A stretch of 64,000 nt of DNA from Arcobacter cloacae (GTDB lineage: Bacteria > Campylobacterota > Campylobacteria > Campylobacterales > Arcobacteraceae). Both the position numbers and the translations under genes were made by a program. The notes under the pieces were generated by a model, which was not told the DNA's origin, did not search any database, and worked only from the letters and a program-made list of their open reading frames with translations. The stretch spans positions 1 through 64,000 of the forward strand of contig NZ_CP053833.1 in assembly GCF_013201935.1 (NCBI RefSeq). Direction: 5' to 3'. Positions within the stretch are counted from its first letter, which is position 1. Each line of letters starts with the position of its first letter. Below, piece by piece: positions 41,444 through 64,000 of the stretch.

Positions 41444-43030
41444 TTGGATATCAAAACTCTCAACAAAATTGAAAAGGCAAGAGATAAAACTTTACCTGGT
41501 TTTGCGAAGCTTTCATTGGCACTATTATTTATAGTAGTAGTATTTTTATGGTCATATACTTCTCACGGAAATGTTCCTAATAATACTTTTTTAATAATTG
41601 GTGCAATATTTGGTGCTTATATGGCTATGAATATAGGTGCAAATGATGTTGCAAATAATGTAGGACCTGCTGTTGGTTCGAAAGCTATAACTTTGGGTGG
41701 TGCTATTTTAATCGCTGCAATTTTTGAAGCATTAGGTGCATTTATTGCTGGAGGAGATGTTGTAAATACAATTAAAGGAGGAATTATTGATCCTTCAATG
41801 ATTACTAATCCTGATGTATTTATTTGGGCAATGACAGCAGCACTTTTATCAGGTGCTTTATGGTTAAACTTTGCAACTTCGATTGGTGCACCTGTTTCAA
41901 CTACCCATTCTATTATTGGTGGTGTAATGGGTGGAGGTGTTGCTGCTGTTGGCTTTGCACTTGTTAATTGGGACACAATTGGTAAAATTGTAATGTCATG
42001 GATAGTATCACCTTTATTAGGTGCTTTAGTTGCAGCAGGTTTTTTATTTTTTATAAAAAAACAGATTTTATATAAAGAAGATTTATTAGTTGCAGCAAAA
42101 AAAATTGTACCTATTCTAATAGCAATTATGGCTTGGGCTTTTAGTACGTATTTAATACTAAAAGGATTAAATCTTTTAATAAAAGTAGAATTTATTACAG
42201 CTTCTATTATTGGATTAATAATCGCTGGATTCACTTATTTTCTAGTTAAGCCTTTAATTATAAAAGCTGCAAATAACTTACCAAATGATAGAGCATCTGT
42301 AAATAAATTGTTTAATATTCCTTTAATATTTTCTGCTGCGTTGTTATCTTTTGCTCATGGTGCAAATGATGTCGCAAATGCTATTGGGCCACTTGCTGCA
42401 ATAAATGACGCTATTATGAATTCAGGAGTATCTACAAAGGCACAAATTCCATTTTGGGTTATGGCTGTTGGTGCATTAGGTCTTGTAATTGGTCTTGCCT
42501 TATATGGACCAAAACTTATAAAAACAGTTGGTTCTGAAATTACAGAACTTGACCAAATGAGAGCTTATTCTATTGCTATGGCTGCTTCTTTAACAGTAAT
42601 CTTAGCAAGTCAGTTAGGTCTTCCTGTTTCTTCAACACATATTGCAATTGGTGGAGTTTTCGGAGTTGGATTTTTAAGAGAGTATTTAGATTCAAATGAA
42701 AAAAATTATATGCAAGATATTAGGAAAAAATTCAAAAAGCATAAGAAAGAGTTAGATTCTATGCAAGAAGAGTTGCAAAAACTTGAATCAATTAAAGATA
42801 AGTCAAAAGCGAATTATATGAAAATTGTTGAGTTGTATAAAAAAATTGATGATAGAGAAGATATAGTTAAGCAAGATAGAAAAGATGTTAAAGATGCAAA
42901 AAGTACAAAATATGTAAAAAGAGATGCAGTTAAAAAGATTATTGCTGCATGGATTATTACTGTACCTGCTACTGCTATTTTAGCTGCTGCTATATTTTTT
43001 ATGATAAAAGGAATTATGATTGCAGCATAG
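41444..43030 (+). CDS. Inorganic phosphate transporter, Pit family
   Basis: The 528-residue inner-membrane protein has the two inverted Pit signature repeats: GANDVANNVGPAVGSKA near 67-83 and HGANDVANAIGPLAAIND near 305-322. It has about ten to twelve membrane segments and a charged, coiled-coil-like loop near 425-490. It takes up phosphate, probably with a proton or metal complex. The start is TTG (with AAGGG 7 bases upstream) because no suitable ATG is nearer than the first motif. A TATAAT at 41397-41402 is the likely promoter. No phoU partner is adjacent. Confidence 0.85.
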   Translation: MDIKTLNKIEKARDKTLPGFAKLSLALLFIVVVFLWSYTSHGNVPNNTFLIIGAIFGAYMAMNIGANDVANNVGPAVGSKAITLGGAILIAAIFEALGAFIAGGDVVNTIKGGIIDPSMITNPDVFIWAMTAALLSGALWLNFATSIGAPVSTTHSIIGGVMGGGVAAVGFALVNWDTIGKIVMSWIVSPLLGALVAAGFLFFIKKQILYKEDLLVAAKKIVPILIAIMAWAFSTYLILKGLNLLIKVEFITASIIGLIIAGFTYFLVKPLIIKAANNLPNDRASVNKLFNIPLIFSAALLSFAHGANDVANAIGPLAAINDAIMNSGVSTKAQIPFWVMAVGALGLVIGLALYGPKLIKTVGSEITELDQMRAYSIAMAASLTVILASQLGLPVSSTHIAIGGVFGVGFLREYLDSNEKNYMQDIRKKFKKHKKELDSMQEELQKLESIKDKSKANYMKIVELYKKIDDREDIVKQDRKDVKDAKSTKYVKRDAVKKIIAAWIITVPATAILAAAIFFMIKGIMIAA

Positions 43031-43047: not shown

Positions 43048-43106
43048 GATATATAAATTTTAACTTTATTGATGATACAATCTTGCAAAAATTTCAGGAA
43101 TTTTAA

Positions 43107-44021
43107 ATCGAAGCAATACTTTCAGTTTTACCAGTCTATTTTTTTATTTTATTAGGTTTTGTTGCAAAAAAAATTTTTACAAATGAAATAAATGAAAAGA
43201 CTTTAGTACTAATATCACTATATTTTTTTCAACCTATATTAATTTTCTGGGGATTAACAAAAGCTCCAATAAATTATGAGTTTATTGCATCTCCTTTTTT
43301 TTATTTAGTTATTGTTCTTTTTTGTTTAATCCTTCTTATTTTTTTATCAAAGATTTTTTTCAAATCAAGAACAGATGAATCTATATATTTAGCAACTTCT
43401 CTTGTAGGTAATACGGGTAATTTAGGTATTCCTCTTGGAATTGCACTTTTTGGTATAGAATCTGTTCCTTATACAAGTATTATAAATATAGCAAATATCA
43501 TATTTATTTATATATTTTCAGTCTATTTTTTCGCAAGAGAACAATTTTCTATAAAAGAGGCTATTTTTTCAATTTTAAAAATTCCAGGTATTTGGTTTGC
43601 ATTACTTGCATTATTTGTTAATTATCATGAAATAACAATAAATAAACATATTTATACAGCATTAGAAATGGGTGCTTATACTTCTATGGTTATTCAACTT
43701 TTAATATTTGGTATTTATTTATATAGTGTTAAGATAAAAACTATTCCTTGGCATTTAACTTTACATATCAATTTTGTAAAACATATCTTATTACCAGTTA
43801 TTGGAATAGTTATAGTTGTAAATTTTACTCAATTAGACTCTTTTGTAGCTTCAATATTAATTATGGAACTTATGGTTCCACTTGCAGTTAATAATGTTAA
43901 TATTGCGGCTTTATATAATTGTAAACCATTTGATGTAGCTGCAACAGTTTTAGTCTCTACAGCTTTATTTGTTGGGATGTTGTATTTTTATATTGAAATT
44001 ATTGAATATTTTATAAAGTAG
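43107..44021 (+). CDS. AEC-family (auxin efflux carrier-type) transporter with apparent ATC start
   Basis: Read from 43107 the frame is open for 304 codons without interruption and encodes a ten-segment membrane protein of the AEC/bile-acid transporter superfamily: N-terminal EAILSVLPVYFFILLGF, NTGNLGIPLG near 98-107 (the conserved substrate-site motif) and ELMVPLAVNN near 252. Codon 1 is ATC, preceded immediately by an in-frame TAA and by AGGA with a 7-base spacer. No ATG, GTG or TTG occurs in frame before 43668, which would remove more than half of the protein. The likely reading is a non-canonical start or a start-codon mutation. It is followed by asnB after 5 bases. Substrate unknown. Confidence 0.72.
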   Translation: MEAILSVLPVYFFILLGFVAKKIFTNEINEKTLVLISLYFFQPILIFWGLTKAPINYEFIASPFFYLVIVLFCLILLIFLSKIFFKSRTDESIYLATSLVGNTGNLGIPLGIALFGIESVPYTSIINIANIIFIYIFSVYFFAREQFSIKEAIFSILKIPGIWFALLALFVNYHEITINKHIYTALEMGAYTSMVIQLLIFGIYLYSVKIKTIPWHLTLHINFVKHILLPVIGIVIVVNFTQLDSFVASILIMELMVPLAVNNVNIAALYNCKPFDVAATVLVSTALFVGMLYFYIEIIEYFIK

Positions 44022-44026
44022 ATTTT

Positions 44027-45817
44027 ATGTGTGGAATAATAGGTACAAACTTTTTAAGTGATAGATTTGATAAATCTTTAGAACTTTTACATCATAGAGG
44101 ACCAGATTTTCAAAATTCAATAAAAATAGAAAATAAACAATTTGGACACACGAGACTTGCAATTATTGATTTAGATGAAGAAGCAAATCAACCTATGGTT
44201 TTTGATGATATTTTATTGGTTTTTAATGGAGAGATTTATAACTATAAAGAATTGATTCACGTGGAACATTTAGAGTGCAAAACAAAAAGTGATAGTGAAG
44301 TATTAATTCGACTTTATCAAAAATATGGATTTGATTTTTTAAATAAACTAAATGGAATGTTTTCATTTTGTATTTATGATATGAAAAAAGAGTTGTATTT
44401 TTGCGCACGTGATAGATATGGTAAAAAACCATTTTTTTACTATTTTAAAGATAATAAGTTTATCTTCTCATCAAGTGTAAAATCAATTCTAAATCTACTT
44501 GATTATAAACCAAATCTAAATAAAGTTGCACTTTCAAAATATATGCAATATTTTGTCTCTTTTGGTGAAGATACATTTTATCAAGACATTAAAAAGTTAG
44601 AAGCCTCTACATATATGATTTATGAGCCAAATAAGGCTTGTGAGCTTCAAAAGAAGAAATATTACAAGATAAACACCTATAAAGCTATAAAAGATGAAAA
44701 ACAAGCTTTAAATGATATTGAAGAGCTTTTGTTTAAAAGTGTAGAATATAGACTCAATAGTGATGTTGAAGTTGCCTCACTTTTAAGTGGTGGAATTGAT
44801 AGTTCTTTAATCTCTGCACTTTATACAAAAATTTCAGGAAAAAAGATAAATACCTTTAGTGTTGGATATGATGAATATAAAAATTATTGCGAACTTGATT
44901 TTGCACAAATTACAGCAAGTCACATAAACTCAAATCATAATCCAGTAATTATTAATCAAAAAGAGTATATTTATCATTTTGAACAAACGCTTGATATGCT
45001 TGAAGAACCTCATGGAGATAGTGCATCAATTCCTTTGAATATATTAACAAAACAGATACATAAAGCTGGAATAAAAACTGTATTGTCTGGTGAAGGAAGT
45101 GATGAGATATTTTTAGGTTATGATAACTATGCAAAGTTTTTAAAATATTATGAGTTTGAAAAAAGTTTATCAAATGAACAAAATCTTTTTTTAAATGACA
45201 TAATTGGAGCTTTACAAAATAATACTAAAGAGAGTGAATATTTAAGACGAATTGTTAAAAAACAAAATCTTTATAACTCTTTTGGAGAGATTTATACAGA
45301 TATTCAAAGAAAAAGATTGTTTAAAAAAGTTCCAACATTCAAAAGTGAAACAGCAAAGCAAGACCCCGTTGATTGGATGAGTTATATTGACTTAAAGATT
45401 TGGCTAGGTGAGGCATTATTGAGTAAAGTTGATAGAATATCAATGGGCAACTCTTTGGAAGTTAGAACGCCATTTTTGGACTTTAATTTAGTGAATTATA
45501 TGTTTAGTGTTGAATCAGCTATAAAAGTTGGAGATACAAATAAATATTTATTAAAAAAAATTGCTTCAAAATATATTCCAGATACAATAATAAATCGAAC
45601 AAAAAAGGGGTTTAATTCACCTTTTAATGAGTGGTTAAATAAAGAGTATAAAGATAAGATTCTTGATGTAATAGTTGAAGTAAATAATCAAACAAATCTT
45701 TTTAATCATGAGTATATTTTACATATTTATGAGTTGTCAAAATCAAATAAATTTAAACAACATCTATATTCCCTTTTTGTTTTTTCTTTATGGTATAAAA
45801 AGGAATTTTTATCTTAA
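44027..45817 (+). CDS. asnB: Asparagine synthase (glutamine-hydrolysing)
   Basis: AsnB makes asparagine from aspartate, glutamine and ATP. The 596-residue protein keeps the N-terminal nucleophile C2 (MCGIIG) with HRGPD near 24 and NGEIYNY near 66, and the synthetase domain PPi-loop LSGGIDSS near 248 with GEGSDEIFLGY near 350 and VRTPFLD near 482. The family also includes enzymes acting in cell-envelope polysaccharide pathways, so asparagine as the sole product is inference. The stop codon lies inside the palindrome TTTTATCTTAAGATAAAA (45807-45824), a possible terminator. Confidence 0.88.
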   Translation: MCGIIGTNFLSDRFDKSLELLHHRGPDFQNSIKIENKQFGHTRLAIIDLDEEANQPMVFDDILLVFNGEIYNYKELIHVEHLECKTKSDSEVLIRLYQKYGFDFLNKLNGMFSFCIYDMKKELYFCARDRYGKKPFFYYFKDNKFIFSSSVKSILNLLDYKPNLNKVALSKYMQYFVSFGEDTFYQDIKKLEASTYMIYEPNKACELQKKKYYKINTYKAIKDEKQALNDIEELLFKSVEYRLNSDVEVASLLSGGIDSSLISALYTKISGKKINTFSVGYDEYKNYCELDFAQITASHINSNHNPVIINQKEYIYHFEQTLDMLEEPHGDSASIPLNILTKQIHKAGIKTVLSGEGSDEIFLGYDNYAKFLKYYEFEKSLSNEQNLFLNDIIGALQNNTKESEYLRRIVKKQNLYNSFGEIYTDIQRKRLFKKVPTFKSETAKQDPVDWMSYIDLKIWLGEALLSKVDRISMGNSLEVRTPFLDFNLVNYMFSVESAIKVGDTNKYLLKKIASKYIPDTIINRTKKGFNSPFNEWLNKEYKDKILDVIVEVNNQTNLFNHEYILHIYELSKSNKFKQHLYSLFVFSLWYKKEFLS

Positions 45818-62587: not shown

Positions 62588-63250
62588 ATGAAGATTTTGC
62601 TATTAGAAGATGATTTAATTTTGAATGAGATTATCGAAGAGCATTTAGTTTTACAAGATAATGATGTGATTTCCACATTTAGTGGGTATGAAGCTCAAAA
62701 TTATCTATATTCTGAAACCTTTGATTTATTACTTTTAGATGTAAATGTTCCTGATATAAACGGATTTGAGTTATTAAAAGAGTTAAGAGCTCAAAATATA
62801 AAAACACCAGCCATATTTATAACATCTTTAAATATGGCTGATGATATGCAAAAAGGTTTTGAAAGTGGTTGTGATGACTATATAAAAAAGCCTTTTGATT
62901 TAAAAGAATTAGACTTACGAATAAACAATATTAAAAGATTTTTTAATATTTCTCCCCAAAACATAACAATTATTGATGAGAAAATATCTTTAGATAATGA
63001 AAACTTAACAATTATTACTGAAAATAAAAAGATTCAAATTACAAAAAAAGAGAGTGAAGTTTTATTATATTTAATAAAAAACTGTTCAAAAATAGTAAGT
63101 ATAGAAGAATTAACACTTAATCTTTGGGCATATGTAGATAGTCCTACTGCTTCGACCATAAGAACTTATATAAAAAATCTAAGAAAATTTATTGGTGAAG
63201 ATAAAATAAGTAATATAAGAGGAGTTGGTTATCGATTTAACAAGAAGTGA
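62588..63250 (+). CDS. OmpR-family response regulator
   Basis: The 220-residue protein has a receiver domain with LLEDD at 5-9, phospho-acceptor D51 in LLLDVNVPDINGF and KKPF near 102, and a C-terminal winged helix with ASTIRTYIKNLRKFIG and GVGYRF. It is followed by an overlapping histidine kinase gene, so the pair forms a two-component system. Its targets are unknown. AAGGAA precedes the ATG. Confidence 0.9.
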   Translation: MKILLLEDDLILNEIIEEHLVLQDNDVISTFSGYEAQNYLYSETFDLLLLDVNVPDINGFELLKELRAQNIKTPAIFITSLNMADDMQKGFESGCDDYIKKPFDLKELDLRINNIKRFFNISPQNITIIDEKISLDNENLTIITENKKIQITKKESEVLLYLIKNCSKIVSIEELTLNLWAYVDSPTASTIRTYIKNLRKFIGEDKISNIRGVGYRFNKK

Positions 63251-64000
63251 AAAAACTACATTTTTTAGGTTTTTATTTTTATATTTAGGTTCTTCATTGA
63301 TTTTAATGCTTTTTGTTGCATTTTTTTATTATCAAAATGAAAAAACACTCTATATTGATTTGGTTAAATCAAATATGCAAAATATAATTTCTAAAGCTTC
63401 AAATGAAGTTATTGTTTCACATATGATGCAACAAAAATTTGATAAAGAGAAATATTTAAATTCAAATGAATATAAAATATCTTTTTATGATGAAAATAAA
63501 AATTTTCTTTTTGGAAGTCTAAAAGAAAATATTGATTTCTCTTCTAAATTCATTTTTAATGATAACTATCTACTTTTAGTAGATAATTCAACTGTTGGGC
63601 ATTTAGGAGTTGAATATATAGTTTTAAAAGATTCTAGTTTAATGAAAAAAATTGAAGAGTTAAAATTCTCAATTATTACAATATTTTTATTCTCTTATTT
63701 ATTTATCTCTATTGTAGGAATTTATTTGGCAAAACTTTTTTTAAAGCCAATAAAAGAAGAAAGAATCAAACTAAACAACTTTATAAAAGATACTACCCAT
63801 GAATTAAATACACCTATAAGTGCAATTATTATGTCAACTCAAAATGAAAAATTGAGTGCTAAACAAATAGAAAGAATAAGATTAAGTGCAAATAGAATAT
63901 CAGAAATTTATAAAGATTTGACATTTATATTTTTAGAAAATAAACAAAAATCAACACTTTTAGAAGAATTAGATTTATCAATTATAATTAAAGAACAAAT
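63225..64000 (+). CDS. Sensor histidine kinase (cut by the window end)
   Basis: The frame overlaps the response-regulator gene and runs past the window edge (about 258 codons seen). It has a first membrane segment (SEKTTFFRFLFLYLGSSLIL), a periplasmic part of about 110 residues, a second membrane segment, and the H-box TTHELNTPISAI; the ATPase domain lies beyond the window. The start is uncertain: TTG at 63225 is too close to GGAG (63221-63224), and ATC at 63231 is at an ideal distance. It is the partner of the preceding response regulator. Confidence 0.75.
   Translation, partial: MVIDLTRSEKTTFFRFLFLYLGSSLILMLFVAFFYYQNEKTLYIDLVKSNMQNIISKASNEVIVSHMMQQKFDKEKYLNSNEYKISFYDENKNFLFGSLKENIDFSSKFIFNDNYLLLVDNSTVGHLGVEYIVLKDSSLMKKIEELKFSIITIFLFSYLFISIVGIYLAKLFLKPIKEERIKLNNFIKDTTHELNTPISAIIMSTQNEKLSAKQIERIRLSANRISEIYKDLTFIFLENKQKSTLLEELDLSIIIKEQ

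Follow-up and report, generated by a model that had tools for sequence, protein, structure and literature searches.

The window, the whole stretch of 64,000 nucleotides of Arcobacter cloacae DNA analysed here, carries on its forward strand a gene of 304 codons, followed by TAG, for an AEC (auxin efflux carrier) family transporter (43107–44021), whose initiation codon appears to be ATC (43107–43109). A Shine-Dalgarno (SD) motif, AGGA, lies upstream on the same strand (43096–43099), separated from the ATC by a spacer of 7 nt, and an in-frame TAA, read directly from the sequence, abuts the ATC (43104–43106, forward strand), so that an upstream in-frame start is excluded at this locus. The first in-frame ATG, GTG or TTG is the ATG at 43668, corresponding to residue 188, and an ordinary ORF list therefore gives a C-terminal piece of 117 amino acids (43668–44021). 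The sequence-only reading that preceded this analysis had described a 304-codon frame with ATC as codon 1, preceded by TAA and AGGA, had noted that no canonical start codon (ATG, GTG or TTG) occurred before residue 188, and had predicted that gene callers would report the C-terminal part only; these statements are all borne out. Its left coordinate, 43069, was 38 nt too far to the left and in a different frame. The TTG at 43069 and the ATG at 43072 open a frame that soon exits the AEC gene, and they are located at the edge of a -10-like element.

The upstream neighbour is an ORF on the same strand (41444–43030) that we take, from its sequence, to be a PiT-type phosphate transporter gene and that lies outside the mechanism proposed below. 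The downstream neighbour (44027–45817, forward strand) is an ORF that begins with MCGIIG 5 nt 3' of the AEC stop and is presumably, judging from its sequence, an asparagine synthetase-like gene (asnB). The AEC gene is present in 91 of 104 Arcobacteraceae genomes, and searches with loose motifs found a PiT-like tail upstream of it in 70 of these 91 family loci and an asnB-like start downstream of it in 71. The AEC gene and the asnB-like gene probably form one operon. In a block of species with an ATA start (L019–L032), the loose motif detected no asnB start beside the AEC gene, and the unusual start thus seems not to depend on asnB.

Homology from the first codons onwards, as claimed from the sequence, is confirmed by the Pfam profile PF03547 (AEC/Mem_trans), which matches the protein in two stretches, the best of them covering residues 4–143 (72.7 bits, curated cut-off 25.7, E = 2.8e-20). 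An AlphaFold model built from 26 aligned sequences (mean pLDDT 89) has its first helix at residues 2–23, right after codon 1. The nearest solved fold is that of the plant auxin transporter PIN8 (E = 2.6e-8, TM 0.73), which has the PF03547 family and the fold in common with the AEC protein at a sequence identity of 16%; PIN3 and LYCHOS are also among the top fold matches. By its PF03547 profile and the PIN/AEC-type helical fold of its model, the protein is an AEC transporter, with transport as its predicted activity. In a comparison with a 97% identical relative, codons 2–187 have a dN/dS of 0.054 (Sd 27.0/123.0, Nd 6.0/435.0) and codons 188–304 a dN/dS of 0.095, and the part of the gene 5' of residue 188 has a hexamer coding score of 95.6. 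Codons 2–187 are under strong purifying selection, and coding in this part of the gene is not due to chance.

Codon 1 was read in all 91 family orthologues. It is ATC in 44, ATA in 31, ATT in three, TTG in seven, ATG in five (in L129, the ATG counted sits one codon ahead of the aligned position) and GTG in one, such that ATC, ATA or ATT (AUH) occupies the aligned position in 78 of the 91. A comparison of codon 1 in close relatives, which the sequence-only reading had proposed as a check, gave ATC in relatives with 97%, 86% and 84% identity. Its remark that ATC starts are very rare holds for bacteria in general and fails for the Arcobacteraceae lineage. In all 15 order-level matches from outside the family (L037–L051), a canonical codon occupies the position itself, adjoins it or lies no more than three codons away. 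A tree of 93 AEC proteins was built with codon 1 left out and with L103 excluded. This last locus, an AUH row from a draft genome, has an AEC gene interrupted by an internal TGA some 103 codons in, and represents either a broken gene or a sequence error. The tree contains a crown clade of 76 rows (SH-aLRT 100) in which 74 rows have an AUH start, one has TTG and one has ATG; 12 start-codon changes occurred in this clade, 10 of them within AUH and two out of it. Basal family members and outgroups have ATG, TTG or GTG at or beside codon 1, and two sister species of one genus have ATA (L036) and ATG (L105) at the aligned position, within almost identical flanking sequence. The presence of ATG or TTG at the same column in basal members and in one sister species indicates that this column is the true initiator column. 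With AUH at codon 1 in so many orthologues, no other reading fits nearly as well as initiation at ATC, as first suggested from the sequence.

The AUH rows are set apart from the canonical rows by their SD motifs: 71 of 77 AUH rows match the SD over 4 nt or more, versus four of 15 canonical rows (Fisher 2.4e-7, uncorrected for the relatedness of the rows by descent), and the SD spacing is 5–8 nt in 75 of the 77 AUH rows. An extended -10 promoter-like element, TGATACAAT, is present on the forward strand at 43073–43081, about 34 nt upstream of the AEC start. The motif TGNTANNAT occurs within 60 nt upstream of codon 1 in 59 of the 78 AUH orthologues (shuffled rate 5%), at -31 to -38 in 56 of those 59. 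The RNA is predicted from this sequence element to start at about 43087–43089, with a leader of about 20 nt; the position of the element suggests a short leader, with space for little beyond the SD. At 17 of 77 AEC loci (1.8% after shuffling), among them L094, L098, L099, L102, L120, L126 and L127, an inverted repeat with arms of at least 6 nt extends over the SD, from about -33 to -2 relative to the AEC start; its 3' arm is the SD itself and its 5' arm abuts the -10-like element. The arms co-vary, as illustrated by the pairs AAAATTCCTTT/AAAGGAATTTT, GTCCTTT/AAAGGAC and AATCCTTTAT/ATAAAGGATT. The repeat may serve as an operator, or as a hairpin that hides the SD. As a general device it was rejected, given that it is limited to 17 of the 77 loci and is absent from the window locus.

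Starts of the same type were found in other genes. Along 1.2 Mb of the chromosome that carries the window, with 1206 called genes, a screen for coding signal setting in 12 or more codons ahead of the first canonical codon returned 57 ORFs, of which about 10 were plausible cases with AUH and an SD; by eye, the others were put down to shadow frames, to broken genes or to starts of the ordinary type. Three of the plausible cases, encoding UvrB, an HI0933-like oxidoreductase and an AmiC-type amidase, were each traced through 30 genomes, 27 of them from the family. In the family genomes, uvrB starts with ATC in 12, ATA in four, TTG in five and ATG in six, giving 16 of 27 with AUH, and an SD is present in 16/16 AUH cases and 6/11 canonical cases; in the A. 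cloacae chromosome, the gene (L148:15488, chromosome 775488, forward strand) has two consecutive ATC codons, the second of which fits the conserved protein start. The oxidoreductase gene begins with ATC in 15 family genomes, ATT in five, ATA in two, ATG in four and GTG in one (AUH in 22 of 27), with an SD in all 22 AUH cases and in none of the five canonical ones. The commonest AUH start is AUC in AEC, uvrB and the oxidoreductase gene alike. The amidase gene was assigned by pattern: ATT in 19, ATA in two and ATC in two, for a total of 23 of the 27 family genomes, with GGAGAATA or variants of it just 5' of the ATT, ATA or ATC; the pattern had no match in four family loci (L216, L220, L225 and L228), and row L215 is unsure, as TTG is its codon 2. 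At L149:8410–10173 (chromosome 788410–790173, reverse strand), the amidase gene has an ATA start and its first canonical codon is 275 codons further on. In a genome from outside the family (L227), the amiC-type gene seems to start with ATA, and the AUH trait may, therefore, not be confined to the family.

Another candidate lies in the window itself. A histidine kinase gene with a HisKA match (63240–64000, forward strand, continuing past the window) has a probable ATC start at 63240, in the context GAGGAGTTGGTT-ATC-GATTTAACA (GAGGAGTTGGTTATCGAT). This ATC sits inside the end of the gene for its response regulator (62588–63250), and the same arrangement is present in G021, a second species of the genus; the case is a weaker one, as a TTG is found two codons upstream, directly after the SD. 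A second kinase gene, at chromosome position 223937, has an ATA start preceded, two codons earlier, by an in-frame TAG. A comparison between the window's genome and G021 yielded 682 gene pairs, 612 of them at 45% identity or more. Among these 612 pairs, 358 share a canonical start with an SD, 214 belong to neither group and 40 were AUH candidates, 35 of which were dropped by eye because a canonical codon was upstream or adjacent in frame, or because the match was internal. The AUH cases kept are AEC, uvrB, the oxidoreductase, a zinc-ribbon protein and one kinase. Both species have ATG in 289 of the 358 pairs with a shared canonical SD start, and ATG is thus the choice usually kept.

Putative AUH starts were also observed, in the window's own chromosome, for a membrane protein with ATT ATA (L156:11401–12189, forward strand), an NMT1/SBP sensor kinase with ATA (L062:2526–5093, reverse strand) and an ABC1/UbiB-like kinase with ATA (L166:17581–19137, reverse strand). 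Codon enrichment at SD distance across all genes was too noisy to be of use (ATC 6/36, ATA 16/161 and ATT 6/118, versus 157/2312 for all codons). We tentatively propose, as a reading that is plausible rather than probable, that AUC, AUA and AUU constitute a fourth, regularly used class of start codon in Arcobacteraceae, employed by about 1% of genes (AEC, uvrB, the HI0933-like oxidoreductase, the amiC amidase, sensor kinases and the zinc-ribbon protein), and that these genes are an ancient shared low-output set, the translation of which moves jointly with start-codon fidelity.

In the mechanism proposed for AEC, a good SD on a short leader would position the ribosome at the AUC, and the usual initiator tRNA, with its CAU anticodon, would insert fMet there, with the third base mismatched; the SD and the short leader would compensate for the weakness of the codon. 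The weak start is old: it probably arose inside the family or close to its base, and AUC, AUA and AUU have interchanged since then, with almost no return to AUG. Such a start would keep transporter levels low and render synthesis sensitive to IF3 activity, as we infer from infC and pcnB of Escherichia coli and from ccpN and cvfC1 of Staphylococcus aureus. In vitro, mismatched third bases are disfavoured by IF3, according to the available portion of a published study (PMC10158994). By analogy with these genes, the output of AEC from its AUH start is probably low and sensitive to fidelity. Taken as a whole, the reading that AEC is translated from AUC, an old and conserved weak start with a good SD and a low, probably IF3-sensitive, output, is one that we hold with considerable confidence.

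The translation machinery looks ordinary at the points inspected. All 20 genomes examined for IF3 have it, and its loss was rejected as a cause of the trait. In the window's genome and in the other family genomes read (L310 and other loci), infC begins with TTG; the AUH start of infC that would go with IF3 autoregulation was not found in them, and an IF3 feedback loop is, thus, not in evidence. The initiator-type arm pattern GGGCTNATAACCC has a match in 27 of 30 genomes in one set and in 10 of 10 in another, and all of the matches have C as the first anticodon base (CAU), except for one GAU arm in G058, which we take to be that of an ordinary tRNA-Ile. Genomes with a match have one to five copies of the arm. 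Those with an AUH start in AEC mostly have at least two, but G007, G031, G126 and G076 have one, and copy number was rejected as a cause on these grounds. In 16S rRNA, G1338, A1339, the 790 loop and the 1400 region are the same as in E. coli, and altered decoding sites were also discarded as a cause; position 693 is A instead of G, a state that is presumably common in this class. A G1338A change is reported to raise the number of non-canonical starts, in the passages available from one paper (PMC11497404). The ordinary state of the features inspected (IF3 presence, initiator arms and 16S sites) points to a property of the mRNA, not to an altered ribosome.

The explanation that competes best with selection for a weak start is tolerated drift, in which AUH codons with a good SD would work about as well as UUG, and would come and go with no regulatory role. 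We consider it a genuine possibility, if a rather doubtful one. It is favoured by uvrB, whose movement among AUH (16), TTG (five) and ATG (six) in the 27 family genomes speaks for tolerance, and by the occurrence of AUH in genes of unrelated function, with infC not among them. The near-exceptionless retention of AUH by AEC speaks for selection: 74 of the 76 crown rows keep it, although a single transition would suffice to turn ATA into ATG. The preponderance of ATG among the SD-supported canonical pairs (289 of 358, in both species) and the ordinary IF3, initiator tRNA and 16S sites also argue against free drift. Counts from the tree alone give no significant signal of selection against ATG (about 11 changes, a one-third chance of ATG and no more than one such outcome give a P of about 0.08); AT-rich mutation would lower the expectation for ATG still more.

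It is very improbable that translation of AEC begins elsewhere, whether at an upstream codon, by frameshifting from an upstream frame or at the internal ATG at 43668. Such a start might be sought in the out-of-frame TTG 43069 and ATG 43072, and a canonical codon does lie between the upstream stop and codon 1 in five of the 78 AUH orthologues. In the window, however, the TAA abuts the ATC, and in 63 of the 78 AUH orthologues an in-frame stop is found within 10 codons upstream with no intervening canonical codon; in 10 more, the stop is farther upstream, still with no canonical codon in between. Four of the exceptions (L104, L115, L118 and L119) have their canonical codon at -11, and in L104, L118 and L119 this codon falls in the -10-like element, which would place it in the promoter. 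The -10-like element likewise overlaps the upstream ATG of the window. An upstream start or frameshift was rejected at this locus, the region of 43069 being promoter-like and out of frame. A start at residue 188 would deprive the transporter, whose N-terminal part is conserved, of its N-terminal helices.

A special initiator, in the form of a tRNA with another anticodon or of RNA editing of codon 1 to AUG, would have the merit of accounting for many AUH starts at once, but it is exceedingly unlikely. With the one arm pattern searched, all the GGGCTNATAACCC matches have CAU save the single GAU. A-to-I editing might account for AUA, yet it would leave AUC and AUU unexplained, and these codons interchange in the family. 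A recent mutation from ATG to ATC or a sequencing error in a decaying gene, offered as the alternative by the sequence-only reading, would require a single base to account for the window on its own, but has a negligible probability, given AUH in 78 of 91 orthologues with three different third bases and a dN/dS of 0.054.

Initiation of AEC at a conserved AUC would have consequences for annotation. Callers that accept ATG, GTG and TTG only would cut AEC to 117 of its 304 residues in the species of the window, shorten uvrB by 61 codons and remove more than a third of the amidase. In the A. butzleri genome, ORF prediction allowed only these three starts, as stated in the available part of the genome paper (PMC2147049). 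No report of AUH starts in Arcobacteraceae was present among the matches listed for Arcobacter/Epsilonproteobacteria start codons and AUC starts in the open-licence literature, itself represented in part, and a term search of the portion available of a Campylobacter jejuni Ribo-seq paper (PMC11955535) gave no match for ATA, ATC or AUU. Conserved AUH starts in bacteria have so far concerned single genes or a few genes per species group, whereas Arcobacteraceae retain them across four or more unrelated gene families, one of which is that of uvrB, a DNA-repair gene. Conserved AUH starts are, thus, of a known kind, and the family-wide multi-gene set appears to be new. This gene set provides a direct test of selection for weak starts and of a role for IF3 in linking such genes.

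AEC shows three attributes of the AUH class: an AUH codon with no usable canonical start, a properly spaced SD and conservation across species. In E. coli, infC, which encodes IF3, has an AUU/AUC/AUA start and IF3-dependent translation (excerpts of PMC5472188), and pcnB has an AUU start (cited in the available text of PMC13009471). These two genes resemble AEC in having a conserved AUH start and an SD, and low or IF3-dependent translation is their known mode, as far as these extracts describe it. AEC differs from them in encoding a membrane transporter, and infC in Arcobacteraceae starts with TTG. The sigR gene of Streptomyces has a GTC or GTT start kept across the genus (32/34 GTC, 2 GTT), with an extensive SD, and is repressed by IF3 (PMC5472188, in the same excerpts); it differs from AEC in codon class and in gene, and the IF3 effect was shown for sigR, whereas for AEC we infer it by analogy. 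The closest parallel is with S. aureus, in which AUU and AUA starts are conserved, with a reporter output of about 10% of that from AUG, and in which ccpN (AUA), cvfC1 (AUU) and infC (AUA) combine a conserved AUH codon with a strong SD and extend the class beyond infC, as is the case here (PMC13009471, in the sections available). In the same sections, the cvfC1 product is described as small and zinc-finger-like, and the Arcobacteraceae cases include a small zinc-ribbon protein. S. aureus belongs to another phylum and provides, in the text available, two newly reported conserved cases within a single species group, whereas in Arcobacteraceae at least four gene families have such starts family-wide.
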